Positions 1,095-18,888 of a stretch of DNA of 48,106 nucleotides are shown here, piece after piece (within the stretch, counting starts at the first letter, position 1; every line of letters begins with the position of its first letter). Position numbers and translations under genes: made by a program. A model generated the notes under the pieces. That model ran no database searches. It saw only the letters and a list, made by a program, of their open reading frames with translations, and had not been told where the DNA came from. The DNA comes from Elusimicrobium minutum (GTDB lineage Bacteria > Elusimicrobiota > Elusimicrobia > Elusimicrobiales > UBA9959), in assembly GCA_020723765.1 (NCBI GenBank), contig DYIF01000017.1:1-48106 (forward strand). The letters run 5' to 3'.

Positions 1095-1745
1095 TTAACT
1101 CTTTTTGTCCGCTTCGGCTTTCTTTTCGGTTGTTTTATCGTATATACCCAATATCTCTTTCTCTCTCGCCCTTTGTTTTTCTACCATACTATCCATTTCT
1201 TTGAACATATTTTCCGCTTTTTCTTTAACAAACATATAGTGTTTTTCTTCGAGAGTTTTCCTTAACGAGTTTTTATATTGGTCGTAAAAATTATTTTCTA
1301 AATTAAGATAAGCTAAAGAGTAAAAAGCTTTGGTCTCCGGGTCTTGCCATCTGTCTATTATTCTTACGCCAATTAGAACCTCATCTACAAACTCTCTTCG
1401 AGCGACTTCAATAAGCTCATTCACATTACCTTTTTGGGGATCGACGTAATCTTTATTGTTGCCGTAGTAGTCTTTATATAGTTTTTCCACATGAGTTCTT
1501 ATTTGAGAAGCTATTTCGGTTCTCCCTCTCGAATCAGCCGCTTCCCTCATAAGCATGGTGTGAGGTATATACTCCGAAATACCGACTCCGTAGTAGATAA
1601 ACGGAGAGTCTTTTTTAAACGCCTCCCCCCCTTTCATAACCCATTCGGGAGCGTTTTTAAGGTTCAAGGCCTGCGGCTCGTATTTTCTATTGGAAGCGCA
1701 GGCGGTCATTAATAGTCCCATTGCGATTAACGCTATTTTTTTCAT
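1095..1745 (-). CDS. LPP20-like outer-envelope lipoprotein
   Basis: A 216-residue lipoprotein. The signal peptide ends in lipobox LMTAC (Cys16), and the residues after it (ASNRK) lack the inner-membrane retention Asp, so outer-membrane sorting is likely. Residues 32-150 (PEWV, then IYYGVG, AADSRGRTEIASQIRTHVE, later DRWQDPETKAFYSLAYLN) follow the LPP20/FlgP-type pattern: a small alpha/beta domain seen in envelope and flagellar-associated lipoproteins. The C-terminal 60 residues are charged and helical, probably coiled coil. It is the last gene of the seven-gene operon, 9 nt after the previous gene and just before a strong terminator. Family membership is inferred from pattern; a role in bridging or sensing the envelope is only inference. 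Confidence 0.82.
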   Translation of the reverse strand: MKKIALIAMGLLMTACASNRKYEPQALNLKNAPEWVMKGGEAFKKDSPFIYYGVGISEYIPHTMLMREAADSRGRTEIASQIRTHVEKLYKDYYGNNKDYVDPQKGNVNELIEVARREFVDEVLIGVRIIDRWQDPETKAFYSLAYLNLENNFYDQYKNSLRKTLEEKHYMFVKEKAENMFKEMDSMVEKQRAREKEILGIYDKTTEKKAEADKKS

Positions 1746-1754
1746 TTTTTCCTC

Positions 1755-3170
1755 CTATTTGTAATAATTTTTTAGTTTTTCAACTAAAATCTTTGAGGCC
1801 TTCTTTAAGGTTTTGTCCGCTGAGTCGGAGAGAGCGTTTTGGCCGGAGCTTCCGTATCCGGTTTCGCCCGGCCCTTCTTCGGCGACGACCATATTCATAT
1901 CTATCACGGAATAAAGGTATATATAACTTTGAGAAGACGCCCTGTATAAATTATAATCGGCGAGTTTTTCGCTTTGAGCGTCTATTTTTATCAATAAATA
2001 ATAATCAAGATTTTCTTGCGATAATTTGGCCAACAAAGAATTGATGTCTTTTTCTTTTTGTTCGTTTCTTAGTATCGGGTCGAAACCGGAAGAGTTTATG
2101 GCGGATTTTATTATGTCGTTGGAGCCGTTGTAATCGGAAGAATTAAGTTTAACTTTAAAAACAACGGTTTTGTTCCTATGGAGAGTAATCCTTAAGGAAT
2201 TTGTTTTTAGAAAAGGATAATCCGAGGCGTATTCGCTTAAAACCGGCTCGGCGATTATCTGGGTTTCTTTGTAATAAGGGTCTATTTTGGATATATTTAT
2301 TTCCACTCTTCCGTCCTTGGCGGATTTGGCCTTGTCGGAATACAACTCGGCTCTACCTCTTACGCATTCGAATTTGACGGGAAGGTTTTCAATCGGAGCA
2401 TTTTTAAAATAAGCGGTGACATAAGGGGTTTTGTTCAAAAGCCTTCCGGATGCGGAGTATATGAATTTTTCGTCTGGCAAGACGAGATTTATAGAGTAAG
2501 AGATTTCTTGTATTTTGGAATCGAAAAACATCTCGGCGTCCAAATTTTTTTCCTCGTTGTCTTCTTTTATTCTTATTTTTATCGGTATGTCTTTAAAGTA
2601 TTCTCTTTTTAGCGAGTATCCTTTTGAGAAATCGGAAAGGGCGTTTAGGTATTTTCCGTTTTTAAAGTTTTTCTCGCCGTTTAAAGCGTAATCGTTAATT
2701 GCCGATATCCTTTTGTTTTCCTCCTCCAAGACGAGACGGTCGTAATCGGATTTGTCCAAATAAACTATGACCGTTACGGTTTTGTTGTTTGGGTAAAAAT
2801 CGTAATACTCTATTTTTCTACCTTTAAGTATGGAGTCTGCGCGAGTATTTATTATGTAGTCTATCTTTTCTTCTATTTGTTTTTTGTTCAAATTCAATAT
2901 CGAAACGAAATCGGATTTAACATAAACTTTTATGGACCTTAAAAGAGAATCGGTAGCCAAATCTTCCGCTTGGCGCCTTGCGGCTTGTATGTCTCCGTTT
3001 TTTATCTTCGCCGTCCCCTCCCCCATGTATATGTCTATGTTGTTTCTCGAGCGATACCTTTTAATTTCTTTTTTTATGGCGGCGTACTCCTCTTTATCGG
3101 GGTAAGAGAATAGGAGCACGCCGCAGCCTATAACGGTAAAAATTAAAACGCTATATTTTATATATTTCAT
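1755..3170 (-). CDS. LPP20/FlgT-like membrane-anchored envelope protein
   Basis: 471 residues with one hydrophobic N-terminal segment (about 5-22). VIGC at residues 13-16 could be a lipobox, but the hydrophobic run continues past it, so it may be an ordinary membrane anchor. The outside domain starts with a segment (about 47-140: YMGEGTAKIKNGDIQAARR, AEDLATDSLLRSIKVYVKS) typical of LPP20/FlgT-like N-terminal domains, ending in a predicted beta strand (TVTVIVYLDKSDY). The middle (210-330) looks beta-rich and Ig-like. The end (about 345-471: VFKVKLNSSDYNGSNDII, YYLLIKIDAQS, ADKTLKKASKILVEKL) resembles the CsgG/LpoB-type fold that reports on Ser/Thr-rich or helical envelope assemblies. It overlaps the FHA gene by 20 nt and precedes the LPP20 lipoprotein, so translation is probably coupled. 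Confidence 0.7.
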   Translation of the reverse strand: MKYIKYSVLIFTVIGCGVLLFSYPDKEEYAAIKKEIKRYRSRNNIDIYMGEGTAKIKNGDIQAARRQAEDLATDSLLRSIKVYVKSDFVSILNLNKKQIEEKIDYIINTRADSILKGRKIEYYDFYPNNKTVTVIVYLDKSDYDRLVLEEENKRISAINDYALNGEKNFKNGKYLNALSDFSKGYSLKREYFKDIPIKIRIKEDNEEKNLDAEMFFDSKIQEISYSINLVLPDEKFIYSASGRLLNKTPYVTAYFKNAPIENLPVKFECVRGRAELYSDKAKSAKDGRVEINISKIDPYYKETQIIAEPVLSEYASDYPFLKTNSLRITLHRNKTVVFKVKLNSSDYNGSNDIIKSAINSSGFDPILRNEQKEKDINSLLAKLSQENLDYYLLIKIDAQSEKLADYNLYRASSQSYIYLYSVIDMNMVVAEEGPGETGYGSSGQNALSDSADKTLKKASKILVEKLKNYYK

Positions 3171-5370
3171 AATTACCTCTATCGGTGTTCTTTTTAAATT
3201 CCACTCCCGGAATTAGGACTTCGTCTAAAATCTTGAAAATTTTAAAACCTTCGTAAGTAAAAAGGGTAAAATCGAAATCCCCATCTTGGCAAACCGATAT
3301 AAATCCGTTTAAAATCTTAAATTTCAACTTATTGGTTTCATTCGGAATTAAAACGGCCGTAAAATCTTTGGATTTCAAGAACAAAAATTTGGAATTCAAA
3401 GAATTGTCCGAATAAATTTTGGCGAAAATCGGATATCTATAGGATACTTTAATATTAGAATCCGTTTTTAATTCTTCGACGATTATCGGAGCTTCGTTTA
3501 TAAAAACGCCGTTCTTGGAATCGACATTTTTGACAAAAAACTTTTCTTGTTCAAAGACTATTTTCAAATGGCTGTCTCTGGATACGAAATCGTATAAGAG
3601 ATTAATGTCGGGTTTTTTAATGTTTTCTCTAAAAATTTCCACTTCTTTTTTAAAAAAAAGATATAAAGGAGCCGAAGCGTTTAGGTTATTCGGGTTTATA
3701 AAAGATAATTTCAAAGATTTTATTGAGCGAGTATTATTCAAGTCTTTATATAACATGTCCAGTTTTTTGTTGCGGAGATCGGTTTTTATTATTGTTTCAA
3801 CGGCTTTTTCTAAATTTAAATTCTTTATCATATTCAAAACTTCCGAGTATTCCTTTTCCTGCCTAACGGTTATTTCTTCGGCTTTTTCTTTTATTTCTTC
3901 AAACCCTATTCTTTTGTTTTCTTCCACGTAATAATTTTCTCCGACGATTTCGGATATCAATCTTTTCGCTTCTTCCGCTTTCCCTTCGGATATCAGCATA
4001 TTCGCTTTTATCTGTTTTTTCTTAATTTCGACTTCTTTTATAAACAAATCGATCTCGTTCATCTCTATTTTTTTCTTTATTTTATATAGTTCTTCCATCT
4101 CTTGGTCGTCGGGGATGATTCCTTTCAAATATTTGGCAAGTATGTTTTTAAATTTCAAAAAAGCGTTTTGAGCTTCATTGACGTTTCCTTTGGTAACGAA
4201 GTTAAGCCTTTCGTTTAAAGCGGAAAGCGAAGGGTCGTTTAGAAAACAAAGATAGGAATCCATTATCTCTTTTGCGACTATGAAATCGCCGTTTTTAAGA
4301 TACTCTTCTACCCTCTCTTTATCCAAACCCCATTTTTCTTTTTTAACAACGGAGTATTCGTTAAAAAAATCTTCCGATTCATTATGGTTTAGAAGCGATT
4401 TAATTTTCGATAATTTTTTCTCTTCTTCCACGGATAACTCCCCGGTCTTATCCCATTTTTCTTTCAAAGATTTCAAAGCCAAAAAAGCGTTTTCGGCTTC
4501 CTCCGGGTTATTAAAAGTTATAAATTCCAGTTTATGTTTCATCTCTTTAAGCTCTTCGTAGTTTAAAAATTCAAGCTTATCCATCAAGGCTTTTGCGGAA
4601 ACAAATCTGCCGTTTTCGATAAAATCTTTAAATTCGGATTTAAATTTTTTAAACTTAAAAAAATAATATGATTTTAAAGCTAACTTATACAAAAACTTAA
4701 GAATTAAAAAAAACAAAATAAAGCTTATTACGCCGAAGGTTATCGCGGATAGGTATTTTACCAAAGCGTAGAAAAATTTTATCAAGTTTTCAAAAAAAGG
4801 CTTTGTAAAAATAGCGGAAGACTCAACTACGCTGTTTTTCGATACAGAATCGACTATCTTTAATTCTATTTTTCCTTTCCAAAAATGTCCGGGGACGGAA
4901 GAATAAAAACATTGGGCGTAGTAATTAGGAGCGACTTCCTGAGTGGCCGATTTTATCAAAACGGAAGGGTCTTTTATGACGTTCATTCTGGCTAAGTATT
5001 TGTTTATTCTCTCGACCGTTTTTTTTCTCTCTTCCTCGTTTATGACCACCTTCCACCCGTCGTATAAATATAACTGGGCGTTTATCAAACTTCTCATCCT
5101 CTGGACAAAATCCCTCTTACTCCCTTCTATTCTGCCGATGGAACCGACCCAGCCTTTCAGTTTCTTCTCCTTTATTTTTTGGCTTAAATCTTTCCCCATA
5201 TTCATAATGGATTCTTCGTAATTCACGGCGATGGGGATTTTTTTGTATTCGTAATTGTAATACAAGTATCCGTATATAAAAGTAGAAACCGCCAATGCTC
5301 CCAAAGCAATTTTAATGAAATTTAAGAATTTATTTTCGTAAATTATTTTTTTGACTAAATTCGAATACAT
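3151..5370 (-). CDS. Two-pass membrane protein with cytoplasmic FHA domain
   Basis: 739 residues. Transmembrane segment 1 lies at about 19-39, an outside domain at about 40-195, transmembrane segment 2 at about 205-235, then a long helical and coiled-coil cytoplasmic region to about 560 containing two similar blocks (FxSAKALMDKLEFLNYEEL and FIVAKEIMDSYLCFLNDPS) that look like internal duplication. An FHA-like domain follows (about 570-655) with the signature VSRDSH...VKNVDSKNGVFIN, matching the usual phosphothreonine-binding SRxH and SxNG motifs. The start at 5370 lies 41 nt inside the kinase gene but is preceded by GGAGGAGG at ideal spacing, which settles it. FHA domains bind phosphothreonine, so the kinase encoded next to it is the obvious partner. 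The outside domain is not recognised. Confidence 0.8.
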   Translation of the reverse strand: MYSNLVKKIIYENKFLNFIKIALGALAVSTFIYGYLYYNYEYKKIPIAVNYEESIMNMGKDLSQKIKEKKLKGWVGSIGRIEGSKRDFVQRMRSLINAQLYLYDGWKVVINEEERKKTVERINKYLARMNVIKDPSVLIKSATQEVAPNYYAQCFYSSVPGHFWKGKIELKIVDSVSKNSVVESSAIFTKPFFENLIKFFYALVKYLSAITFGVISFILFFLILKFLYKLALKSYYFFKFKKFKSEFKDFIENGRFVSAKALMDKLEFLNYEELKEMKHKLEFITFNNPEEAENAFLALKSLKEKWDKTGELSVEEEKKLSKIKSLLNHNESEDFFNEYSVVKKEKWGLDKERVEEYLKNGDFIVAKEIMDSYLCFLNDPSLSALNERLNFVTKGNVNEAQNAFLKFKNILAKYLKGIIPDDQEMEELYKIKKKIEMNEIDLFIKEVEIKKKQIKANMLISEGKAEEAKRLISEIVGENYYVEENKRIGFEEIKEKAEEITVRQEKEYSEVLNMIKNLNLEKAVETIIKTDLRNKKLDMLYKDLNNTRSIKSLKLSFINPNNLNASAPLYLFFKKEVEIFRENIKKPDINLLYDFVSRDSHLKIVFEQEKFFVKNVDSKNGVFINEAPIIVEELKTDSNIKVSYRYPIFAKIYSDNSLNSKFLFLKSKDFTAVLIPNETNKLKFKILNGFISVCQDGDFDFTLFTYEGFKIFKILDEVLIPGVEFKKNTDRGNYEIYKI

Positions 5371-6292
5371 TTTTAACCTCCTCCAAAGACGGCCTTAAAT
5401 CCGGGTTAGGGTCTAAACATTTGTCTATAATTTCGCAAATTTCTAACGGAAGAGCCGAAACGGCATCTTTTAACGGAATGTACGATTTTTTTTCCTTTTG
5501 GTATATTATGTCCATTCCGCTTCCTTTAAAAGGCGGCTCGCCAGCCAACAATTCGTAAGCTAAAACTCCCAAAGAATATATGTCGCTTTTAAAAGAATGC
5601 CTTCCCAAGTGTTGTTCGTAAGCCATATACAAAGGAGTTCCGAAGAAATCTTTTCCGGTCAATGCGGTTACGGTGTTTTTTATTTCGAAAGCGATGTCGA
5701 AATCGGTAAGTTTTATCGTGTTTTTTTCGTCTATCATGACATTGGAAGGTTTTATGTCCCTGTGAACGATATTTTTGGAGTGAGAATAAATCAAAGCTTC
5801 GCAGAGAGCCGAGCATATCTCGGCTGTTTGAAAGAGATCTAAATTGCCTTTTTCGGATATTATTTTGTATAAGTCTTTGCCTTTAATAAATTCCATCGCC
5901 ATGTTTATTTTGCCTCCGATAATATGTAAGTCGTATATCTTGACTATGTTTTTATGGTCGAATGTTTTTAAAATGTTTATTTTTTTGTATATCTTCTCCA
6001 GTTCTTTTGTCCCCAGATTTATTTCTTCTTTAAAAACCTTCAATGCGAATTTAAAACCCGGGTTAGATTTATAATAAGCTTCCTTTATTACCGCCATCCC
6101 CCCGCTCGATATTTCTCTTAATATTACGATATCCGATTCGCGATTTGATACCGCGACCGTTTCGTTAGGGTCTTTATCCGGCTCTTTGTATCTCTTAACA
6201 GATTCGGCTTCGTCTCCCAATTTTACCATAGTTCCGCACAAATCGCAGTAATGACCGTCCGGCACATCTTGTTTGCAATTTCTACAAATCAT
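5330..6292 (-). CDS. Zinc-ribbon Ser/Thr protein kinase with altered motifs
   Basis: 320 residues. An N-terminal zinc ribbon (Cys3, Cys6, Cys16, Cys19) is followed by a Hanks-type kinase domain (about 53-312). Seen directly: glycine loop SSGGMAV, ATP-binding Lys85 (FALK), catalytic HRDIKPSN at 177-184 and activation segment GTPLYMAYEQ. Three usual signatures are changed: DFG is DFD (197-199), the helix-C Glu position reads Lys, and APE is AYE. The catalytic Asp and metal-binding Asp remain, so it may be an active atypical kinase or a regulated near-pseudokinase. There is no transmembrane segment, unlike PknB-type kinases. SD GGAGGG sits 4 nt before ATG. It overlaps the FHA gene downstream and the DnaJ-cysteine-rich gene upstream (4 nt), suggesting a stoichiometric module. 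Confidence 0.9.
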   Translation of the reverse strand: MICRNCKQDVPDGHYCDLCGTMVKLGDEAESVKRYKEPDKDPNETVAVSNRESDIVILREISSGGMAVIKEAYYKSNPGFKFALKVFKEEINLGTKELEKIYKKINILKTFDHKNIVKIYDLHIIGGKINMAMEFIKGKDLYKIISEKGNLDLFQTAEICSALCEALIYSHSKNIVHRDIKPSNVMIDEKNTIKLTDFDIAFEIKNTVTALTGKDFFGTPLYMAYEQHLGRHSFKSDIYSLGVLAYELLAGEPPFKGSGMDIIYQKEKKSYIPLKDAVSALPLEICEIIDKCLDPNPDLRPSLEEVKNVFEFSQKNNLRK

Positions 6293-9027
6293 TTTCCCTC
6301 CGACTCGGACTTTCCAATTATTTTTTTAGAAATATCGGAAAGCGAAGAGGCGATTTCCGAGATTTTATTCGCGTTTATTTTTTCGTAATCCGCGTTATTG
6401 CATTCGTATGCGATTATCCCCACTTCGTCATATTCCTTTAAGTATTCTATTTTTACGGTCTTTTTGGAATCGAAAGGCAAATAAACCTTGCCATTATTTT
6501 CTATAATGTAATCCAAAAAAGCCTTTCCCAATGTTTCTACGATTTTACCCGCTTTAATTAAAAGTATTCCGTACAATCCTTTAGATTCGGCGAGTTTATA
6601 TAGTTCTTTCGCCGTTTTTTTAACGGATTCGTCGGATTTTACGGATGTTATAAAAGCGAGTCTTCTCGTGAGCTCTTGAGAAGAATATAAAGCCAATACG
6701 GATTCATCCGAAATTTTTTTCAACTCTTCAATCTTTTTATTTAAACCATTTTTATTTTTCCAAGAAAAAGAAAAATAAAAAATCAAAGATAATACGAACA
6801 AAACGATCAAGTAATCGATTCTCATATAATAAATCCAAAGATTTGTCCATAAATAAACGAAGAAAAACGTAAAATAAACCGCAATTTTAAACCGTCTAAA
6901 TTTAAAACCGTTCATCGGCAAAAACAAAAACAAGAAAGAAGAGAAAAGGAAATTTAAAGAAATGTTGGAGATAAGATATCCGATATAATAACTTTCTTTG
7001 GAAACCCGATATAAATATAAAACGAAAAATAAAATGTTTGAAATCCATAAATATTTGGATATCAAACCCCTTTGCGAGTTATAAATTTTTTCTAAAAAAT
7101 CTTTGGGATTTTGTTTTTTTTCTTCCTCTTCGGAATTTTCTTTTTTGTCTTCAATTTTGACTATGGATCCGTTGCGAATCGAGATCTCCGGGAAATAGCC
7201 GGATAATTCGGCGGAAATCTTTAAAGCGCATTCGAAAGATTCGTAATCCTCGGCTTTAAGGGATTTTTCCAAAAAAGCATATACTTTTTCGTAAAATTCG
7301 CCGATAATCAAAAAAGCGTAAAATAACTCCGTCTCTCCCTTTTTGCGGCAGATATCTTTTATTCTTTGGACAAGGTCAAAAAACTCCAAACTCCATTTTT
7401 TAAGGTCGGTATCCGATAAAGGTTTTATTCGCGTATCGTATATTTTATTAAAAACCAATAAAAGGATAACGCCGAAAACCTCGGTTTTCTTTAACAACTC
7501 TTCGGCTTTTGAAAATAACATTTCCAAAGGATAGTTTTCGGAAATCATTTTTAAAAACAAAGAACTCGCCGATAAAGATATCAAAACGGAATCTTTTGTC
7601 GTTTCTTGCAAAATAACCAATTTTTTTTCGGCCCCGGCGATGTCGTTTTTCTCGACATCTTCGGATATTTGAAAAGACAATGAATCGTTAAATTCTTTTA
7701 CCGGGTCGGAAGCGGAATATATGGAAATTTTTTCTCCGTCTTCGCTAAACAGAAAAACTTCGTAATTTTTATCTTCGTATAAATACTCTATTTTATAAAC
7801 GTCGATTTTAAAAAATTCGGTTTTTTCCAAAACGCTTCTTTCTCCGGAAGTCGCGGAGAATTCTTTTTTAAAAGAATTATTTTTATTATCTTCTATTTCA
7901 CCGTATTTTAAACTCAAATCAGGGTGAGGAATATTTATTTTAAAAGAGCCCAAATCGTCGGTTATTAAAGAAATAAATCCGCTCGGGTTTAGTTCTTCGA
8001 AAGAATCTCCGTATAAATAAGGAGATTTAACGAAAAGATTCTCGGGATATAAGTTTTTTATGTCGGTAAAAAATTCTTTTTTGGAAAAAGAAGCGTCGAC
8101 ATAAAGGTTTTTTATAAGCCTGCCCTCTCCTTCGCATTTTCGGCAAACGACCTTCCCGCTACCATCGCATTTTTTGCAGTTTACCGTTCCTCTTCCCAAA
8201 CAATAATGGCATACCGAGCTTCCCCGTCCATTACATTTATCGCATGTAAGATACCCCGATCCCAGGCAGGTTTTGCATACGACCGTTCCGCTTCCCCCGC
8301 ATACGGAACACACTTCCGTAATGTCGCCTGAAGAGTAGTTTTTTATAAAACCTTTACCGTCGCATCCGGAGCAAGTTTCTCTTCCGTTTCTACAAGAATA
8401 ATTTTTGCATTTAATTCTTCCTTTACCGTCGCATTTAATACAAATTACGCTTCCTCTGCCCGAGCAAACTCCGCATTCCACCATACCTTTGCCCGAACAA
8501 TCCGAACACCGCACTTTCCCCGCTCCGCCGCAGTCCTCGCAGTCGAAAACCTCGAATGTGCCGGGAATATCGTATTGGAATGAAGTTTCTTTAAATTCTT
8601 TGGGTACGGACAGGTTTTTCTCGTTCCATAGCAAGTATTTTCCCATATCTATCTTGTTTTTCGGATAATCAAAGCCGGAATAAGGCCTTATTTTTTCCAA
8701 AACCTCTCTTTTTTCGTTTAATACGGAAATTTTTACCGAGTAGTAAGGGATAAGTTTTGCGGATTTTATTACGGCTTTGTCGAAAAGGTCTTTATGATTA
8801 TGATAAGGGATAGAATCGACCCATTCGTTTAGCCGTTTCTTCAAAAAATCAATTTGATCTTGGGAGAGTTCTTTCGATTTAAAAATTTCTTTGGATATTA
8901 TTTTTTCGGCTTCGTTAAAATCGAAGTTTTTTTGATTTAATTTTTCTCCGCAATTTTTGCAATAATTGCTAACCGTTCTGTTGGCGGTATTGCATATATG
9001 GCAGTTTAATATCTTTTCAAATACCAT
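6289..9027 (-). CDS. Membrane protein with 12 DnaJ-type CxxCxGxG motifs
   Basis: 912 residues. An N-terminal zinc ribbon (CHIC...CKNC, about 9-31) precedes a remarkable cysteine region (about 160-310) with eleven CxxCxGxG motifs and one variant (CKNYSCRNG), roughly every 11 residues. DnaJ itself has four, paired on two zincs, so this could bind about six zincs in an elongated hairpin. There is no J domain. The middle region (330-640) is mixed and unrecognised. About four transmembrane helices lie between 670 and 770, followed by a C-terminal soluble domain to 912. Such cysteine domains bind unfolded protein or act as thiol/zinc scaffolds in other families. Encoded between the unknown 209-residue protein (11-nt overlap) and the kinase (4-nt overlap). 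A client-binding or redox-sensing role is inference. Confidence 0.8.
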   Translation of the reverse strand: MVFEKILNCHICNTANRTVSNYCKNCGEKLNQKNFDFNEAEKIISKEIFKSKELSQDQIDFLKKRLNEWVDSIPYHNHKDLFDKAVIKSAKLIPYYSVKISVLNEKREVLEKIRPYSGFDYPKNKIDMGKYLLWNEKNLSVPKEFKETSFQYDIPGTFEVFDCEDCGGAGKVRCSDCSGKGMVECGVCSGRGSVICIKCDGKGRIKCKNYSCRNGRETCSGCDGKGFIKNYSSGDITEVCSVCGGSGTVVCKTCLGSGYLTCDKCNGRGSSVCHYCLGRGTVNCKKCDGSGKVVCRKCEGEGRLIKNLYVDASFSKKEFFTDIKNLYPENLFVKSPYLYGDSFEELNPSGFISLITDDLGSFKINIPHPDLSLKYGEIEDNKNNSFKKEFSATSGERSVLEKTEFFKIDVYKIEYLYEDKNYEVFLFSEDGEKISIYSASDPVKEFNDSLSFQISEDVEKNDIAGAEKKLVILQETTKDSVLISLSASSLFLKMISENYPLEMLFSKAEELLKKTEVFGVILLLVFNKIYDTRIKPLSDTDLKKWSLEFFDLVQRIKDICRKKGETELFYAFLIIGEFYEKVYAFLEKSLKAEDYESFECALKISAELSGYFPEISIRNGSIVKIEDKKENSEEEEKKQNPKDFLEKIYNSQRGLISKYLWISNILFFVLYLYRVSKESYYIGYLISNISLNFLFSSFLFLFLPMNGFKFRRFKIAVYFTFFFVYLWTNLWIYYMRIDYLIVLFVLSLIFYFSFSWKNKNGLNKKIEELKKISDESVLALYSSQELTRRLAFITSVKSDESVKKTAKELYKLAESKGLYGILLIKAGKIVETLGKAFLDYIIENNGKVYLPFDSKKTVKIEYLKEYDEVGIIAYECNNADYEKINANKISEIASSLSDISKKIIGKSESEGK

Positions 9028-9646
9028 AAATTTCTCTTAATTCTTTAAGTATTTTAAAATAATCCGAAAGTTTTTCGGATTTGTTTCCATATTTAACATA
9101 ACTTTCTATTTCCATTAATATAAGAGCTTTTTCTCCTTCTATCAAATAAACTTCAGCATTTGAAGGATCGGCAAAAGGTGCGAATAAAACAAATAAAACT
9201 ATCGGAGTTATGTTCCATACAAAAGCCGATTCGGCGATTGCCGATATTTTTTGATATAAAACCAAATCCTCCGGATTTGCGTTTTTTGACAAGTTTGATT
9301 TATCCGACATTATTTTAGCGGTTTCCAAAGCGTTTCTTAGGTTTTTTAGAGTTAGAAAATTTTGCCTCGGGAGCTTTATGTCCCAATAAATCTTCCATAA
9401 AATTAAAGCATATCTTATTAAAGGGATATAACCGCTTAAAAGGTTATCCAAATCTTTTAAATCCATAGACCTTAATCTTTCGTATCTTAAAATGGATATG
9501 CTTTTATCCGGGAAGTTCGAATAATAATCCAATCTATCAACTCTATTACCTATTTCTATTGGTATATCTTCCATCTCCTTAAATAAAGAAATCGCTTTTT
9601 TAATATCGAACTTCCTTTCTATCATTATTTCTTTTAATTCTTTCAT
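9017..9646 (-). CDS. Unknown helical protein of the ClpX/kinase operon
   Basis: 209 residues, no family recognised. It appears mostly helical. One long hydrophobic stretch (ESAFVWNITPIVLFVLFAPF, about 138-157) could be a membrane helix or a buried hairpin. There is no signal peptide or cysteine motif. SD GGGGGA precedes the ATG, and the end overlaps the next gene by 11 nt. Its position between the ClpX-like ATPase and the cysteine-rich membrane protein suggests an adaptor or inhibitor in the same system, but nothing in the sequence proves that. Confidence 0.75.
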   Translation of the reverse strand: MKELKEIMIERKFDIKKAISLFKEMEDIPIEIGNRVDRLDYYSNFPDKSISILRYERLRSMDLKDLDNLLSGYIPLIRYALILWKIYWDIKLPRQNFLTLKNLRNALETAKIMSDKSNLSKNANPEDLVLYQKISAIAESAFVWNITPIVLFVLFAPFADPSNAEVYLIEGEKALILMEIESYVKYGNKSEKLSDYFKILKELREIYGI

Positions 9647-9663
9647 ATTTCCCCCTTTATAAA

Positions 9664-11241
9664 TTAACCTATTTTTATGTTGTTCTTAAGAATTTCAAAA
9701 AACTTTTTTTCCATTATGGAGTACAAAGACCTCGCCCCCGTGTCCATTTTATTTGCCTCTTCGGCTATTTCGGTTATTACTTTATCGTCGAATTTATAAT
9801 CTATCCCGCTTTTTTCAAGCATTTTTTCATATAGCTTTATCGGAGAGTCTTTGCTTTGTTTTAATATGTTTTCCAAATCTTTTTCGGACAAGTTTTTTAA
9901 GGCGATTATGGAAGGAAACCTTCCGATTATTTCCGGGATAAAACCGAAGTTTTCCAAATCGGCATTAACCACCTGCTTTGAAAGCTCCGAATCGGATTGT
10001 TTGGAGGCAGAGAAACCTATAGGAGTTTTGTTTTTTATTCTTTCCTCTATTATTTTATCCAAACCGACAAAAGCCCCCGCGGCAATGAAAAGAACGTTGG
10101 ATATGTCGTACCCTTTTACTTCTCTAAATATTCTAATTCCGTGGTCGTGGCCGTATATGACCTCGTCTTCTTCAAGTATTTTAAGCAACTCCTCCTGAAC
10201 GCATCTTCCGCTTACGTCTTTATTGGAATAATGCTGATAAAAACTCCCTTGGGAAGCTATTTTGTCTATTTCGTCTATGAATATTATCCCGTTTCTCGCA
10301 AGCCTCGTGTCTCCGTCGGCTTCCTCATATAGCTTTACTATCATATCTTCCACATTAAGCCCGACATATCCCGTTTCGGTGTATTGGGTCGCGTTTACTT
10401 TGACGAAAGGAACTTTTAAAAATTTGGATATCAAATGGGCTATGTAGCTTTTTCCCGTTCCTGTGGGGCCTATCATCAATATGTTGCCTTTTACCGTTTT
10501 TTCGTTTTCCCTCTTGGAAACGCAGGCCAACATATGCCTATAAACCGCCACGGAAATCTGTTTTAGAGCCTCGTCCTGTCCGATAACGTAAGACCTTAAA
10601 TAAGAATAGAGTTTTTGAGGGAAATTGGGATTCAGATTGGAACCGTATATGGAGTCTATCTCTTTTTTAAAAATCTTTTTCTTATTGGAATCTCTTATAG
10701 GCAAAAAGTATTTTACTATTTCCGAACCGATCTCTATCCTTTCGGAATTGAAATCTTTATAAGCCAATAGGCCGCTTCTAACGAGCTTGGAATCCCGCGC
10801 TAAACTCGCGTAAATTTCAAGCATCGGTTCGCCGGTAAAAAAAGAAATTTTTTTTATCATGTCTTTTTTTCTGTTGTCGTAAGCGAATTCTTCGTAAAAA
10901 TAATAATATATATACAAATAAACCAAAACCCTTTCGGATTGGGTTAACGAAAGCTTGTTCATCTTCATTTCCGGCTTTAAGAAAAAACCGTTTTCTTCCC
11001 CGACTATGACATAATCTCTTATTCTTCCGTAATATTTTTTTAATTCGGCCAAAGCGGAGTTTTCTATAATTTCTTTTTCCAAATCCTCTTCGGAATTTTT
11101 ATTCATTCTATCGTTTTCGAGATTTAAAAACCGCTTTGAGTTTTTTCTAAACCCGAAATCGTCGAAGTTTCTAAACGCTTCGCCGAATTCCATTATCCTC
11201 GTAAAATAACCGTTTATTATTTCTTTGCTTACTTTTCTCAT
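9664..11241 (-). CDS. ClpX-like AAA+ unfoldase with novel N-terminal domain
   Basis: 525 residues. The C-terminal 320 residues are a ClpX/HslU-type AAA+ module: Walker A GPTGTGKS (258-265), pore loop GYVG (291-294), Walker B FIDEID (321-326), arginine/sensor region RFPSIIAL and sensor-2 GAR near 504. IGF at 408-410 lies where ClpX carries its ClpP-docking loop, so pairing with ClpP is possible. The ClpX zinc-binding domain is absent, replaced by about 200 residues with a helical part and a winged-helix-like segment (LSLTQSERVLVYLY...SKLVRSGLLAY). Neither clpP nor trigger factor lies nearby, so this is likely a specialised paralogue. It is the first gene of the operon (SD GGAGGG), with its own promoter and inverted-repeat operator at 11341-11375. 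Confidence 0.88.
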   Translation of the reverse strand: MRKVSKEIINGYFTRIMEFGEAFRNFDDFGFRKNSKRFLNLENDRMNKNSEEDLEKEIIENSALAELKKYYGRIRDYVIVGEENGFFLKPEMKMNKLSLTQSERVLVYLYIYYYFYEEFAYDNRKKDMIKKISFFTGEPMLEIYASLARDSKLVRSGLLAYKDFNSERIEIGSEIVKYFLPIRDSNKKKIFKKEIDSIYGSNLNPNFPQKLYSYLRSYVIGQDEALKQISVAVYRHMLACVSKRENEKTVKGNILMIGPTGTGKSYIAHLISKFLKVPFVKVNATQYTETGYVGLNVEDMIVKLYEEADGDTRLARNGIIFIDEIDKIASQGSFYQHYSNKDVSGRCVQEELLKILEEDEVIYGHDHGIRIFREVKGYDISNVLFIAAGAFVGLDKIIEERIKNKTPIGFSASKQSDSELSKQVVNADLENFGFIPEIIGRFPSIIALKNLSEKDLENILKQSKDSPIKLYEKMLEKSGIDYKFDDKVITEIAEEANKMDTGARSLYSIMEKKFFEILKNNIKIG

Positions 11242-11461: not shown

Positions 11462-14446
11462 TTAATAATAAATTTTTATTCCGCTTCCTTGTTTTGAAGG
11501 GATAACCTCTATTTTAGAAGTTATTCTGTTCTTTATCTCGTCGACATGAGATATTATCCCGACTACCCTTCCGTCTTTGGAGAGGTTTTCTATAACCTTT
11601 AAGCATCCGTCCAGAATAGAGGAGTCCAAAGAACCGAAACCCTCGTCTATAAAAACCGACTCCATGGATATTCCGCCCGAATAGCTTTGAACCACATCGG
11701 AAAGCCCCAAAGCCAAAGACAGCGAAGCCAAAAAGCTCTCCCCGCCAGAAAGCGTATAGACGTCTCTCAGTTGAGAAGTATATGTATCAAAAACGTTTAT
11801 ATCAAGCCCCAAGGCAAGCCTCTTATCCCCGCCTTTTTTTCGCTCAAGCTCAAACCTTGAAGTAATCTCGTACAATCTTTTTGAAGCGTAATACAAAACC
11901 TCTTCAAAAAAAGCGGATAAAACGTATCTTTGCAAAGATAATTTGTGAGGGTTATTCCCCGATACCATGTCCGATAATTTTTTAGAAAGTTCGTACTCCG
12001 CTTCCAAACCGGAAAGTTCTTTTAAAGCGGATTCCATCATGGAGATGTATTTTTCGGTTTCTTCTATGTTTTTTTCAATTTTCGCGAGATTTTTCTCGGC
12101 CGTTATTTTTTCTTCTTCCGCTTTTTCCTTTTTATTTTTAAATTCCGAAATATTGGGTTTTTTGGCTCCGGTAAGTTTTTCTTTTAAAGTTTTAAGATTG
12201 TTTTTTACAATCTCGTATTTCCTCTCAAACTCTCTTAAATCCCTATCCAGTTCTTTATACTCTTTCTCCTCAATCAAAGCCGAAAAATAATCCTCTATGT
12301 TTTTAAAGCCTTTTTCCGTTAATTTATTCTCAAAATTGTTTTTGGCGATATCCAAATTCTTCCTTCTTTTTTCAATCTCCGATTCGGCTTTTTCTTTTTC
12401 TTTTTTGATTGTTTCGTATTCTTTTTCGGCTTTTTTGGCTTTTTCTTCTATTTCTTCTATCTTCAAAGAAAGCGAAGACGATTCTTTTTTCAAACTTTCA
12501 AATCTTTCCATGAAAATATCCGGGGATATTCCTATGTCTTTATTTATTTGCTCCATTTTAGCCAGAAAAGCGGACTTTGTCGTTTCAAAACCTTTTTTCT
12601 TTTCTTTTTTTAATTCTATTTTTTCCGATAGAGCGTCAAGCTCTTTTTGAAGTTTTTCGGTTTCTTTTTCCAAACTCTCAAATTCTTCCGCGTTTTCTTT
12701 GGCTTTTTTTAATTTCGATTCTATTTGCGAAAACTCTTCTTTTTTGATTTTTTCGACGAATTCTTTGAGCGTTTCGAGTTTCGCCTCGATTTTCGACTTT
12801 GTTTTATCAAGTTCGCTTATTTCTTTTCCAACCGAAGAAAGTTTTTTGGAAATTTCATCCATTTTTTTATCTATTTCAAACAAAGAAACATCGATTTTTT
12901 TATTATCGCCGAACTTCGCTTTTAAAGGATGATGGGTAGAACCGCAAACGGGACATGGAGAGCCTTCTTTTAGAGATAGAGCGAGATTTGAAACGACGCT
13001 TTTTTCAAGATTTTTTGCAGCTTCCTCTCTTTCCAATTTTATTTTTTCAAACTCGGATTGCAATTTTCTTTCTTCATCCTTCTTTTTTTCCAACTCCTCG
13101 TCTATTTCTTTAAATTCCGTTTTTAGTTTGCCAAAAACTTGTTTTTTCTCGGATAATTCCATGTATTCTTCGTATGTTTTTTTAAGTTTTTCATATTCCG
13201 TTTGAGATTTTGCGATTTCTTTTTTTCTTCTTTCCCTTTTTTCAATATCCGTTTTTAGCTTATCTTTTCTATTAATCGCTTCGTTAAGTTCGTTTGAAAT
13301 TTTCAAAATCTCCAAATCGGTCTTTTTAATCTTATCTTTTAAATCTTTTAATTCTTCTATCTTTGAAATCTGTTTTTCCATATAAGATATGGAACTATCC
13401 GCTTCTTTTTTCTTTTCTTTTAACTTATCGATTCCTTGATATTCTTTTAACGCCGAATCTTTGTTTTTTCCGGAAACCTGAAATCTTTTCTTTATTTCTT
13501 CAATTTCCTCTTCCTTATCCGAAACTTCTTTTTCGGCGTTTAAAAACCTTTCCGAAACATCGGATATTTTTTGAGCCTCGAGGGCTCTATTTAGGATTTC
13601 TTTCTTTTTGTCGTATTCTTTTTTAACCGAATTCATTTTGTAAAATTCCGACTCCGTTTTTTCGTATTCTTCGAAATTTTTAAAAGTTTCCAACGCTTTT
13701 CTATAATCCTCTTCGGCTTTTTTCAACTTGGCGCCTAAAACCGAAGCGTCTTTTTGAATTTTTCCTTTTTCTTTTATTTGAACCTCTCTTTTGGCTTTAA
13801 TCTCTTCCAAATCGGCCGAAGAGGAGGCTTGGAGGACGGTTTCTATTTTGCTTCTCGTTTCTTGAGTTTTTTGAGTTATTTCTCTTAATTTTTCTTTCAA
13901 TTTTTCTTCGATTTTCTCGTATATCTCGGTTCTAAAAAGCTTTTTTAATATTTCCTCTTTTTGGTTGGAATCGGAAAACAAAAACTTTTGGAATTGGTTT
14001 TGAGGCAAAATCATTATTTGAGTAAACTGCTCGGCGTTTAGGCCCATTATTTTTTTAATCTCTTCGTCGAAATCTTTTCCCTTCTTATAATTAAAAAATT
14101 TTTTCTCCCCCCCTTCCTTCTTCCACAAACTGACGGAATTTTCGGACTTAGAAGATCTAAGGTATCTTTTTACTCCGTAAACCCCGCTTCTCAAAGAAAA
14201 CTCAAATTCTACGTAACTATCTTCTTTGGGAGAAGAGAAATCGCTTATCATGTCATTTTTATCTCTATATAACGAGGAAGATTTGCCGAAAAGGGCGTAT
14301 GTAACGGCGTCGAGTATGGTGGTTTTTCCCGCTCCCGTAGGGCCGGTTATAAGAAAAACGGATGAATTAGAAAGTTTTTCAAAATCTATTTCGGTTTCGG
14401 ATTTATAAGCCCCGAAACCTTTCATTTTAAGCTTTAAAGGCTTCAT
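11462..14446 (-). CDS. sbcC: Exonuclease subunit SbcC (Rad50 family)
   Basis: 994 residues. The ATPase and coiled-coil subunit of the SbcCD nuclease, which opens DNA hairpins and trims blocked ends. Seen: Walker A GPTGAGKT (35-42), long heptad-rich coiled coils on both sides of a zinc hook (SPCPVCG, near residue 497), ABC signature LSGGES and Walker B VFIDEGFGSLD near the C-terminus. Length is normal for the family. The ATG overlaps the sbcD stop by 4 nt, so the two are translated together. The 220-nt space after it holds the next operon's promoter and only an A/T-rich palindrome (11409-11424), with no clear terminator; some read-through into the ClpX operon is possible. Confidence 0.97.
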   Translation of the reverse strand: MKPLKLKMKGFGAYKSETEIDFEKLSNSSVFLITGPTGAGKTTILDAVTYALFGKSSSLYRDKNDMISDFSSPKEDSYVEFEFSLRSGVYGVKRYLRSSKSENSVSLWKKEGGEKKFFNYKKGKDFDEEIKKIMGLNAEQFTQIMILPQNQFQKFLFSDSNQKEEILKKLFRTEIYEKIEEKLKEKLREITQKTQETRSKIETVLQASSSADLEEIKAKREVQIKEKGKIQKDASVLGAKLKKAEEDYRKALETFKNFEEYEKTESEFYKMNSVKKEYDKKKEILNRALEAQKISDVSERFLNAEKEVSDKEEEIEEIKKRFQVSGKNKDSALKEYQGIDKLKEKKKEADSSISYMEKQISKIEELKDLKDKIKKTDLEILKISNELNEAINRKDKLKTDIEKRERRKKEIAKSQTEYEKLKKTYEEYMELSEKKQVFGKLKTEFKEIDEELEKKKDEERKLQSEFEKIKLEREEAAKNLEKSVVSNLALSLKEGSPCPVCGSTHHPLKAKFGDNKKIDVSLFEIDKKMDEISKKLSSVGKEISELDKTKSKIEAKLETLKEFVEKIKKEEFSQIESKLKKAKENAEEFESLEKETEKLQKELDALSEKIELKKEKKKGFETTKSAFLAKMEQINKDIGISPDIFMERFESLKKESSSLSLKIEEIEEKAKKAEKEYETIKKEKEKAESEIEKRRKNLDIAKNNFENKLTEKGFKNIEDYFSALIEEKEYKELDRDLREFERKYEIVKNNLKTLKEKLTGAKKPNISEFKNKKEKAEEEKITAEKNLAKIEKNIEETEKYISMMESALKELSGLEAEYELSKKLSDMVSGNNPHKLSLQRYVLSAFFEEVLYYASKRLYEITSRFELERKKGGDKRLALGLDINVFDTYTSQLRDVYTLSGGESFLASLSLALGLSDVVQSYSGGISMESVFIDEGFGSLDSSILDGCLKVIENLSKDGRVVGIISHVDEIKNRITSKIEVIPSKQGSGIKIYY

Positions 14447-15579
14447 ACGCCTTCCTCCTTGGATATATCTTTTAAAATCTCCTCTACCGCTTTAATTTCC
14501 TTTTTAGAAGGCTCTTCACCCCAGATATCTTTATAAAACTTTTCAAAGAGCCTTAAAGGGCTTTCGGATTTTTGTATCTCCTCGGTAGTTACGGAATATG
14601 AACGAATCGGAATATCGGGACGCTCTATCTTCAGTATGTTGGGATAAACCTTGGATATTTTTCCCACGGGGTCGTATATTATTTCTTTATCCAAAATATT
14701 GGCGAGTATATAATCGTCTTTATTACCGTCTTTTTCTCCGTTTTTTAATATGTCGTCGATTTTACCTTCCACTATTCTAAGGTCTCTTTTAAATTTAATC
14801 TCCAAATTTTCGGTTTTTACCTCGCCGTTTTTTCCGATATCCGCAAGAATATATCTTTTTTTATGATCGGCTTCGGAAAAAGAATATTTATAAGGAGAAC
14901 CGCTATAAACCAAATTGTTTCGTCCTTGAGGCTTATGAAGATGTCCGCAAGCGACATAAGAAAAATCCTTAAAAGCCGAAGGGTCTACCGCGTCGGTTCC
15001 TCCTACCGAAAAAGGCCTTTCGGACTCGGATGTCGCTCCGTTTTCTACGAAGAGATGAGCGAGCAAAACGTTTCTTGAAGAATTAAAAGATTCGGTTATC
15101 TTTTTAGATATTTTTTTAACGGCCTCGTCGTAAGTTTTTATTCCTTCGTCTTTTAGATTGGATTTTAAAAAATCCAAAGTCATATAAGGCAAAAACCAAA
15201 AAGAGACTTTCCCCCACTCGTCCTCCAATTTCAAAGGCTCGAAGACGTCTTTGAACGAAGTTTTTATGAACAATTTATTCGAACTGAATATTTTAGAGCC
15301 GAATGAAAGCCTTTCGGGGCTATCGTGATTTCCGTTTATTATAAGTATCGGGATTTTTCGGTCTATGATTATCTCGCTTAATATCTCGTCCAAAAGCCTA
15401 ACGGCATCCGGCGACGGTATGGACCTATCGTACAAATCGCCTGAAATTACAAGCGCCTCGGCTTTGTATTCTTTTATAAGACGCGAAAGCTGAGATAAGA
15501 CATAATGCTGGTCTTCAATCAAACTCCTTTCGTGAAGAAATCTCCCCACATGCCAATCAGAAGTGTGGATAAATCTCAT
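14443..15579 (-). CDS. sbcD: Exonuclease subunit SbcD (Mre11 family)
   Basis: 378 residues. The metallo-phosphoesterase nuclease partner of SbcC. The metal-binding motifs are all present: HTSDWHVG at the N-terminus, SGDLYDR, INGNHDSPERL and CGHLH. Residues after about 265 form the usual capping and SbcC-contact region. SD GGAGGGG precedes the ATG. The gene heads the sbcDC operon behind the inverted-repeat promoter at 15602-15636. Confidence 0.97.
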   Translation of the reverse strand: MRFIHTSDWHVGRFLHERSLIEDQHYVLSQLSRLIKEYKAEALVISGDLYDRSIPSPDAVRLLDEILSEIIIDRKIPILIINGNHDSPERLSFGSKIFSSNKLFIKTSFKDVFEPLKLEDEWGKVSFWFLPYMTLDFLKSNLKDEGIKTYDEAVKKISKKITESFNSSRNVLLAHLFVENGATSESERPFSVGGTDAVDPSAFKDFSYVACGHLHKPQGRNNLVYSGSPYKYSFSEADHKKRYILADIGKNGEVKTENLEIKFKRDLRIVEGKIDDILKNGEKDGNKDDYILANILDKEIIYDPVGKISKVYPNILKIERPDIPIRSYSVTTEEIQKSESPLRLFEKFYKDIWGEEPSKKEIKAVEEILKDISKEEGV

Positions 15580-16695: not shown

Positions 16696-18888
16696 TTAGA
16701 TTATTTTTATTTTAACATCTAAATCTTCAATCAATTCTTCGATTATAGTTTTAATCCTCTGAATGCAGCCATTAGCGGAGATATTAACGTGTAAAAATAG
16801 AGTTTTATCACCTATTGTCATTATTTCATCAAAAGATAATCCATCTAAAGATTTATATCTTCTCTTCAATTCCGGCTCATCTTCTATTAGTTTTTTTAAT
16901 TTTTCATAATCTACTATTATATTATCATTTCCAAATAATTCTGATTGTTTTTCTATTATAAAATCAAAAATTTCTTTTTCATTTTCTCTCAGATAGTTTA
17001 AAAATTCAATAAATACATCTCTCCAATGATTTACTTTTATCTTATTACCCAAAAGATAAAGCTCAACCGGCTTACTTCCTGTAGAAATATCTAAGATTTC
17101 TTCATCCAAAATAGAAAAAATGTTATCTACGTTGTTCGTTTTAGAAATCCAATTATCGGAATATTTATATTTATCAGGAATAGCAAAAACTTCAAGGAAT
17201 CTTTTTATCATCTTTTGTTGGTGTTTTATTATAGTTTTTTCGTTCCAATTCTTCTCGTTTATCACATCAAGTCTATATTTTAAAGAGGATTCTTTTAATT
17301 TTTCTTTTTTTTCTTCGAAAGATTTATTTCCTATTTCACTATTAAACTCCGTAAGTATGATATTCCCTATATTATGCAAATAATTATTATGAATCTCTTG
17401 CCATTTTTCTCCTAATTTGGCTTCCCATTCATTAGACAATTTTCTCGGCATTATATGCTCAATGGTAATTCTTTTGTCTCTAAAGTCGACTGAAACCTTA
17501 GAATTATGCTCTTCGATTTTGCCCAAAATAAATTTAGAATACTGTTTAAGTTCTTCATAAAAGTTAACGGTTTTTAATCTATTTGCAACTTCATCATCAT
17601 TAGGAAGCCTTAACTTATAAAACAATTTTGATAAAATATCAAACATAGTTAGTTCTTTCTTGGCTATATGTTCTATTTTTTTAACGAGCAATACTATATT
17701 TTTATTCTCGCCTTGCGTTAAACTCAATATTCTTCGCCGAATCAAATATATCATTATCGATTCCAAAACGGATATCAGGGTTTCATCGTCTAATTTTACA
17801 CCGTTAACTCCATATTTATAATATTCCAACAATCCAAGGACAAAAGGCTTAAATGCCTCCGATGTGATATCGTGGAATATATTTCTAAGAAGTTCCTTTA
17901 TTTTTTTATCAAATATGGAATCTTTTGAAATTTCATCCGCAAAAGTCTCATCTATTATCCATTTATAAGGTTTTGCCAATTTAACAATATCTTCGATAAA
18001 ATCTTTCTTAGTTTTGAAATTGGAATTTACAAATTCTTTAAATTCCTGATATAACTCTTTTGTGTTATTATCGCTAACAACCTTTAAAGAAGTAGCTTTT
18101 CTGTATTGTAAATAATCTCTAAAAAAATTAGAACAATTTTCTCCCAGAACGTTTTCTATTTCCGGATGCCATTTTCTTTCATATAAGTTGGACTGTTCAT
18201 CGCTATGCATGTTTAATAATATGAAATTTCTAACCAAATCGGATAATGTCAAAGGCTTCCCCAAAGAATTTAGGGTTTCAAATATTATTTGAGGATCTTC
18301 TCCTTTAAAAGGTCTTTCGTCTAAAAAAATAACCGCCACATTCATCCTATTAATTGCGGTTATATAATGTTCAAATTTTATCTTGTTGTTTTCTTTATTA
18401 ATTAAACTTTTCAATAAACTATATGCGCTTGTAATTATCCCTGGAATCTGAGGCTCTTTATTTACCAAAGCTTTGTAAGCCTCCCAATCTTTCGTAACTT
18501 GTTTTAATTTTATTTTATCATCAAATGTAGATAAATTATTTTTTAAATAAGTCTGGTCTATAAAATTTTGCTTTTCAAAATCTTTTTCCAAATCTCTTAG
18601 AGCTATTAAAAACAATAGAGTTGTAGTAAGCCTTTGTTGCCCGTCAACAATAACAAATTTATTTGCAAAACCGCATCTTTCTTCTCTGATAACAAGCGTG
18701 CCGAAAAAATGCTCCAATTTATCTTTTTCATTTATATCCAGCTCGGAGTTTATGATTTTCATTATATCGCTAAAGAATCTTTTTATTTCATTTTTTCCCC
18801 AGGCATATGAACGCTGGAATGGCGGTATAAAAAAAGATACCGAATTCATAGATAACACTTTAGCTATCGAATGCGTTTCCGTTTTCAT
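16696..18888 (-). CDS. DUF262-DUF1524 (GmrSD-like) defence protein
   Basis: 730 residues. The N-terminal DUF262 domain has IPPFQRSYAW (about 22-31), FFGTLVI and the nucleotide-binding signature VDGQQRLTTT (about 85). The DUF1524 HNH-like nuclease domain follows near 475-540 (ITIEHIMPRKL, NYLHNIGNIILTEFN, NKSFEEKK). About 150 further residues end in LFLHVNISANGCIQRIK, a C-terminal module seen on other restriction-type proteins but not named here. Single-chain GmrSD proteins are type IV restriction enzymes against modified phage DNA, and related ones serve other defence systems. SD AAGGAT. Codon use looks more A/T-biased than the neighbours and repeats flank both sides, suggesting acquisition. 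No partner gene is adjacent. Confidence 0.88.
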   Translation of the reverse strand: MKTETHSIAKVLSMNSVSFFIPPFQRSYAWGKNEIKRFFSDIMKIINSELDINEKDKLEHFFGTLVIREERCGFANKFVIVDGQQRLTTTLLFLIALRDLEKDFEKQNFIDQTYLKNNLSTFDDKIKLKQVTKDWEAYKALVNKEPQIPGIITSAYSLLKSLINKENNKIKFEHYITAINRMNVAVIFLDERPFKGEDPQIIFETLNSLGKPLTLSDLVRNFILLNMHSDEQSNLYERKWHPEIENVLGENCSNFFRDYLQYRKATSLKVVSDNNTKELYQEFKEFVNSNFKTKKDFIEDIVKLAKPYKWIIDETFADEISKDSIFDKKIKELLRNIFHDITSEAFKPFVLGLLEYYKYGVNGVKLDDETLISVLESIMIYLIRRRILSLTQGENKNIVLLVKKIEHIAKKELTMFDILSKLFYKLRLPNDDEVANRLKTVNFYEELKQYSKFILGKIEEHNSKVSVDFRDKRITIEHIMPRKLSNEWEAKLGEKWQEIHNNYLHNIGNIILTEFNSEIGNKSFEEKKEKLKESSLKYRLDVINEKNWNEKTIIKHQQKMIKRFLEVFAIPDKYKYSDNWISKTNNVDNIFSILDEEILDISTGSKPVELYLLGNKIKVNHWRDVFIEFLNYLRENEKEIFDFIIEKQSELFGNDNIIVDYEKLKKLIEDEPELKRRYKSLDGLSFDEIMTIGDKTLFLHVNISANGCIQRIKTIIEELIEDLDVKIKII

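Follow-up and report, generated by a model that had tools for sequence, protein, structure and literature searches.

A recurrent kinase, FHA and envelope-protein gene core in Elusimicrobiota, a possible trans-envelope signalling module

The 48,106-base contig DYIF01000017.1 of Elusimicrobium minutum, phylum Elusimicrobiota, is complete and is referred to as the window; the genome to which it belongs is 2.1 Mb long and 98% complete. Seven open reading frames on the minus strand, at positions 1095–11241, form one tight co-directional run, numbered here as genes 1 to 7 in transcription order. Genes 4 to 7 encode a zinc-ribbon Hanks kinase, a protein with two transmembrane (TM) segments and an FHA domain, and two envelope proteins, LPP20a and LPP20b. 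Relatives of these four genes recur together, in permuted order, in at least four families (f1, f10, f21, and f23). The recurrent four-gene core looks like an undescribed kinase–FHA signalling variant with an envelope module. The preferred reading, held tentatively and with chances somewhat short of even, treats the conserved core as a trans-envelope phospho-signalling module, which has been locally extended by a ClpX-type unfoldase. The original prediction, made from the sequence of this operon, had proposed a trans-envelope system of all seven genes; the signalling part of that proposal is upheld by the recurrence of the four genes, whereas conservation of the seven-gene proteostasis system as a unit is not supported. 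The proteins of the core are as follows.

5330–6292, minus strand: gene 4, Hanks-type Ser/Thr kinase of 320 residues with an N-terminal zinc ribbon (CxxC..CxxC) and no TM segment (Pfam)
3151–5370, minus strand: gene 5, two-TM protein of 739 residues with a periplasmic domain (about 51–189), cytoplasmic helical repeats, and an FHA domain (about 585–641)
1755–3170, minus strand: gene 6 (LPP20a), secreted or lipobox-bearing envelope protein of 471 residues, assigned by predicted fold
1095–1745, minus strand: gene 7 (LPP20b), LPP20-family lipoprotein of 216 residues (Pfam) with the lipobox LMTAC, read by eye

We infer the protein contacts, the phospho link between kinase and FHA domain, the direction of signalling, and the role of genes 1–3 as follows. 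The LPP20-type lipoprotein of gene 7 and the FlgT/PelC/CsgG-like protein of gene 6 would act at the outer membrane or in the periplasm, where they would contact the LpoB/CsgG-like periplasmic domain of the inner-membrane protein of gene 5. The cytoplasmic FHA domain of gene 5 would read phosphothreonine made by the zinc-ribbon kinase of gene 4. The flow would most likely be outside-in, with the state of the envelope setting the kinase output. The host operon would have gained the gene 1 unfoldase and the zinc- and cysteine-rich membrane protein of gene 3, which could plausibly provide regulated unfolding or ClpP proteolysis as an output or quality-control arm. If this reading is true, the reader of the Hanks-kinase/FHA relay is itself anchored in the inner membrane and carries a periplasmic domain of the LpoB/CsgG type, and the core would reveal a way of sensing or controlling the envelope in a little-known diderm phylum.

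Recurrence of the core in the phylum

The searches covered 341 genomes of the phylum, designated by G-numbers, with individual loci designated by L-numbers. The complete seven-gene set was found in the host genome only. LPP20a was detected with gene 6 in 10 of the 341 genomes, nine of them besides the host, and the neighbourhoods of the nine other LPP20a genes hold relatives of gene 5, gene 7, or the kinase. Relatives of the core from the host's own family and phylum bear the label Elusimicrobia. A gene 5 profile matched in seven of the genomes (six full-length proteins and one membrane half, in G154), in every case beside LPP20a, and the remaining profile matches are short and cover the FHA domain alone. 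The hypergeometric probability of this co-occurrence is 1.2e-12, a nominal value, as these same loci supplied the sequences of the profile; its independent part is that such a gene 5 occurs in no other genome of the 341.

The transcription order is LPP20a–FHA–kinase in G041, LPP20b–LPP20a–FHA in G247 and G253, FHA–LPP20a followed by one or more kinases in G187 and G197, and LPP20a followed by two kinases in G194. The G010 locus contains two LPP20-like genes, the second recognised by the gene 6 profile, then LPP20a, a zinc-ribbon TM protein, and a kinase. In G232, LPP20a is followed by a weak kinase match that is truncated by the end of the contig. Because the order is permuted, the recurrence argues for a functional tie between the core genes rather than a merely inherited segment. 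A profile scan of the contigs with a ten-row gene 6 alignment found no conserved stretch, and a three-row alignment recovered two loci only, both from Elusimicrobia.

In G154 (L083:8008–10911), an LpoB-type two-TM protein, a histidine kinase, and LPP20a are encoded in a row. The histidine kinase apparently stands in place of the Hanks kinase and the FHA part, and the envelope part remains constant. From this replacement, the envelope pair would seem to pass its signal to a cytosolic kinase; sensing is favoured, because the envelope pair stays when the type of kinase changes. Owing to the swap, the sensing part can also be separated and tested.

Several other genes were observed at the core loci. 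The core of G187 lies between FGE-sulfatase-like genes (L078:6128–7033 and 13804–14868), one of which encodes a double zinc ribbon. WD40 proteins or WD40–kinase fusions are encoded at the G010 and G197 loci, and an integrase-like gene is present at the latter.

Domains and predicted folds of the core proteins

The kinase domain of gene 4 belongs to the Hanks type (Pfam E=1.6e-50, 172.4 bits). The catalytic motif HRDIKPSN is intact, and the DFG motif reads DFD at residues 197–199 (window 5696–5704), a replacement seen in gene 4 only, as the ten other kinases compared differ. Because DFD replaces DFG, kinase activity of gene 4 is likely but not certain. An N-terminal zinc ribbon is present in six of the eight core kinases, and every core locus with a complete kinase has at least one such protein. 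Two of the host's other three kinases have no zinc ribbon, and the sequence of the third does not extend to the N-terminus.

The FHA domain of gene 5 scores 27.5 bits against a threshold of 20.7 (Pfam E=4.2e-6), which places it in the FHA family, and it retains the residues of a phosphothreonine reader, VSRDSHLK (S/R/H) and NG. In Foldseek searches with a structure model of moderate quality, gene 5 matched LpoB (4q6l and 4q6z; probability 1.00, E-values 1.5e-3 to 2.4e-3, TM-scores over the target 0.49–0.55) and also CsgG, and the fold of its FHA domain matched those of GarA, OdhI, and FhaA. We assign the LpoB/CsgG matches to the predicted periplasmic segment 51–189, because the order of helices and strands in this segment fits.

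Genes 6 and 7 begin with a signal peptide or lipobox, as read by eye. Gene 7 belongs to the LPP20 family PF02169 (E=1.8e-6, 28.7 bits versus a gathering threshold of 25.9), whereas gene 6 reaches only 12 of the 25.9 bits (E=0.3), and its likeness to LPP20 lies in the fold alone. Thus, of the two LPP20-type proteins originally proposed, the smaller is an LPP20 protein by Pfam, and the larger is one by its predicted fold and not by its Pfam score. The model of gene 6 (pLDDT 82.7) starts with an SHS2/LPP20-like domain, which is followed by a helical hairpin, an Ig-like domain, and, at the C-terminus, an alpha/beta domain. Its matches in the PDB are FlgT, the flagellar LPHT ring, PelC, CsgG, GNA1162, and intimin Ig domains; the FlgT/PelC/CsgG/GNA1162 group includes outer-membrane ring formers. 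The modelled protein is FlgT-like, has an Ig domain, and ends in a part that resembles PelC/CsgG. A further hairpin, residues 82–107, is inserted in the SHS2/LPP20-like domain after the SHS2 helix, ahead of the following strand, and has a pLDDT of 34–41. In the SHS2 family, an insert after the SHS2 helix correlates with ring formation, according to a study of flagellar proteins (PMC12222027).

Genes 1 to 3 and ClpX-like proteins of the order

The remaining genes of the operon lie upstream of the core.

9664–11241, minus strand: gene 1, ClpX-like AAA+ unfoldase of 525 residues, assigned by its ClpX-type AAA+ domain and motifs
9017–9646, minus strand: gene 2, protein of 209 residues with one hydrophobic segment (136–161), matching no family
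6289–9027, minus strand: gene 3, DnaJ-type cysteine-rich protein of 912 residues with an N-terminal zinc ribbon and 11 CxxCxG motifs

Gene 1 falls below the cut-offs of both ClpX models, NCBIfam NF003745 (E=1.3e-90, 304 versus 359 bits) and TIGR00382 (271 versus 370.75 bits). The alignment to ClpX starts at about residue 197–208 and covers the rest of the protein, which retains the Walker A (GPTGTGKS) and Walker B (FIDEIDK) motifs, the GYVG pore loop, the ClpP-docking loop IGF, and the GAR motif. These motifs are mostly common to its relatives, in which the docking loop is IGF or VGF. An N-terminal domain of about 200 residues stands in for the C4 zinc-binding domain of ClpX, and the whole protein contains two cysteines. 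In a Pfam scan of 13 ClpX-like proteins, this N-terminal domain matched no family; a possible likeness to the winged-helix N-domains found in other AAA+ proteins was considered and dropped.

None of the genomes of the order that were searched, the host included, encodes a ClpX that scores above the curated cut-off (0 of 121, compared with 10 of 14 control genomes), and 22 of the 121 encode ClpX-like proteins below the cut-off with an altered N-terminal domain. The absence of canonical ClpX from 121 genomes and the presence of N-terminally altered ClpX-like proteins in some of them are of interest by themselves. Gene 1 is the sole ClpX-type unfoldase that was found in the host genome. Because these genomes have no ClpX above the cut-off and ClpP is present in the host, gene 1 may be the only ClpX-type partner of the host ClpP. 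Proteins of the ClpA, ClpB, and ClpC types are presumably present in the host as longer, weaker matches.

Relatives of gene 1, with 34–48% identity, occur in 19 other genomes of the order, and BLAST searches around these 19 ClpX-like genes recognised none of the other six operon genes nearby. Gene 3 has strong hydrophobic segments at residues 684–709 and 730–759. It is not a member of the DnaJ (Hsp40) family: the J domain is absent, and its DnaJ_CXXCXGXG domain scores 22.7 bits versus a cut-off of 32.7. Its relatives were found in six other genomes of the class, in none of them adjoining other operon genes. A search for relatives of gene 2 yielded none that is convincing. The sister species G001 lacks genes 1, 2, 3, 5, and 6. 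The expectation that the set would be kept together in relatives is thus borne out for genes 4–7, which recur together in permuted order, and fails for genes 1–3. Genes 1–3 are local additions to the core, as relatives of genes 1 and 3 occur elsewhere with other partners.

Other sets of genes accompany the ClpX-like genes. A gene of 331–332 residues adjoins the ClpX-like gene in four genomes of one family (L029:7722–8717, L031:8616–9611, L032:10848–11843, and L033:7860–8858); the three that were scanned match WYL/WCX regulators and lie upstream of the ClpX-like gene. In a second family of the order (L037, L039, L040, and L041), the ClpX-like gene is followed by genes of about 165–180 and about 527 residues, a recurrent set whose larger member contains tetratricopeptide repeats in L037.

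Alternative explanations, related systems and genomic setting

Several observations weigh against a trans-envelope phospho-signalling core. The gene order at the core loci is not conserved, a kinase was not seen nearby at G247 and G253, nor an FHA protein at G010, and the co-occurrence statistic is partly circular, so that its true strength is lower. Gene 4 is divergent, with its DFD motif and 30–38% identity to the core kinases, and a kinase tree does not place it firmly among them, the branches being too long for a decision on orthology. The structure model of gene 5 has a pLDDT of 70 and a pTM of 0.34, and genes 1–3 have no conserved tie to the core. For the part assigned to gene 1 speak the presence of ClpP and the intact IGF loop. 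The same parts could also form an envelope-building machine, not a sensor, working from the inside out: the kinase and FHA protein would license the assembly of an outer-membrane ring or channel whose building blocks are genes 6 and 7, or would activate a peptidoglycan synthase by way of the LpoB-like domain in gene 5. The predicted folds of genes 5 and 6 are those of ring-forming or synthase-activating proteins, an insert such as the gene 6 hairpin goes with ring formation in its family (PMC12222027), and phosphorylated Fha promotes assembly in the type VI threonine-phosphorylation pathway (PMC10482370). However, the hairpin is modelled with low confidence, the core holds no channel, synthase, or secreted-substrate gene, and the histidine-kinase variant of G154 fits sensing better; this explanation is unlikely, although it retains a sizeable chance.

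A dedicated seven-gene system for envelope stress or proteostasis, in which the ClpX-like and DnaJ-type cysteine-rich proteins are effectors of the kinase–FHA–LPP20 signal, appears rather improbable. Genes 3, 4, and 5 overlap, which implies that they are co-expressed, and the retained docking loop together with ClpP agrees with such a role. In G085, two LPP20-like genes and a gene with weak likeness to CsgG/LpoB lie ahead of a ClpX-like gene in one co-directional run, and in G149 a gene 3 relative precedes a GNA1162-like gene. However, the remaining relatives of genes 1 and 3 are found in other company, for instance beside WYL regulators in the case of ClpX-like genes, and the seven genes are found in one genome only, not in its sister species. 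The same low probability is given to the fuller version, in which the kinase–FHA pair would read an LPP20/LpoB/CsgG-type outer-envelope assembly and, in this lineage, directly drive two effectors against envelope damage: a dedicated unfoldase of the ClpX type, working with ClpP, and a chaperone-like membrane protein of the zinc-cysteine kind. It is very improbable that unrelated transcription units were fused in this lineage by chance, the upstream three and downstream four genes having no joint function: the two halves have independent histories and gene 2 has a distinct composition, but the overlapping and closely spaced genes look selected for co-expression, and such an assembly leaves the core unexplained. 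Slightly less probable still is an accessory anti-phage defence operon composed of a kinase, an unfoldase, and a chaperone-like protein. The distribution is sporadic, CRISPR repeats (1–745) and a GmrSD gene (16699–18888) lie in the neighbourhood, and in PADLOC gene 4 scores well against mad6 (2.2e-67) and PD-T4-6 (2.7e-53). However, these are generic Hanks-kinase matches, and the other operon genes have only weak AAA matches; envelope proteins of the LPP20/LpoB type are not expected in such systems, and no defence genes were seen beside the core relatives, except for the integrase-like gene at G197.

The closest working analogy for the core is the type VI threonine-phosphorylation pathway (TagQRST–PpkA–PppA–Fha), in which a Hanks kinase and an FHA protein are likewise connected with the periplasm and with a lipoprotein of the outer membrane. 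TagR belongs to the FGE-sulfatase fold, and FGE-sulfatase genes similarly flank the core of G187. In the type VI pathway, the route to PpkA and Fha1 runs through this lipoprotein and a protein of the periplasm (PMC10482370). Here, in contrast, the kinase lacks a TM segment, and the FHA domain forms part of an inner-membrane protein whose periplasmic domain is LpoB-like. None of the seven operon genes encodes a type VI secretion structural protein, a PppA phosphatase, or a TagST ABC transporter, the rest of the window having been scanned in part. Membership of the operon in this pathway was therefore rejected.

The N-terminal fold predicted for gene 6 and the family of gene 7 are shared with the SHS2-fold proteins FlgT, LPP20, and FlgP; however, the locus is not flagellar, and gene 6 has two further domains, an Ig domain and, at the C-terminus, one that resembles PelC/CsgG. 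The LpoB/CsgG/PelC/GNA1162 lipoprotein fold is predicted in the periplasmic domain of gene 5 and the C-terminal domain of gene 6, but gene 5 is not a lipoprotein: it sits in the inner membrane and carries an FHA domain on the cytoplasmic side. GarA and FhaA, which act with PknB in mycobacteria and, with OdhI, are closest to gene 5 in FHA fold, are cytoplasmic, whereas the FHA domain of gene 5 is carried by a membrane protein with an envelope domain. Gene 1 shares with ClpX of the ClpXP protease its AAA+ core, Walker motifs, GYVG, and IGF, and differs in its score below the cut-off and in the unclassified domain that replaces the zinc-binding one. Literature searches on LPP20, LpoB, or CsgG with FHA domains or kinases, and on kinases of Elusimicrobia, found nothing relevant, and an FHA reader built as an inner-membrane LpoB/CsgG-type protein paired with outer-envelope proteins was not found in the literature searched.

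The tight arrangement proposed for the seven genes was confirmed, with gaps of −41 to +17 nt (+17, −11, −4, −41, −20, and +9 nt in transcription order) and a purine-rich stretch resembling a ribosome-binding site before most of the seven starts. A single promoter, as originally proposed, was not established, because a scan gave 32 promoter-like matches compared with 27.9 ± 5.9 expected by chance. Rfam had no match anywhere in the window. The proposed terminator is present as a strong 18-bp stem after gene 7 (−25.4 kcal/mol on the strand of the operon).

About 1030–1075, both strands: bidirectional intrinsic terminator, closing the operon 3′ of gene 7

The GC content and third-position GC content (GC3) of the operon are inside the range of the neighbouring genes, and horizontal transfer by composition was rejected on this ground; within the operon, GC3 is 0.27 in gene 2 and 0.38–0.45 in the other genes. 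Synteny with the sister species was sought through SbcC, which had no match in G001. A CRISPR array of 10 repeats of 37 nt at a spacing of about 72 nt, followed by a truncated last repeat (726–750), occupies positions 1–750 from the very start of the contig. The GmrSD-type restriction endonuclease gene lies about five kb upstream of the operon, and SbcCD-like genes (11462–15579) are located between the two.

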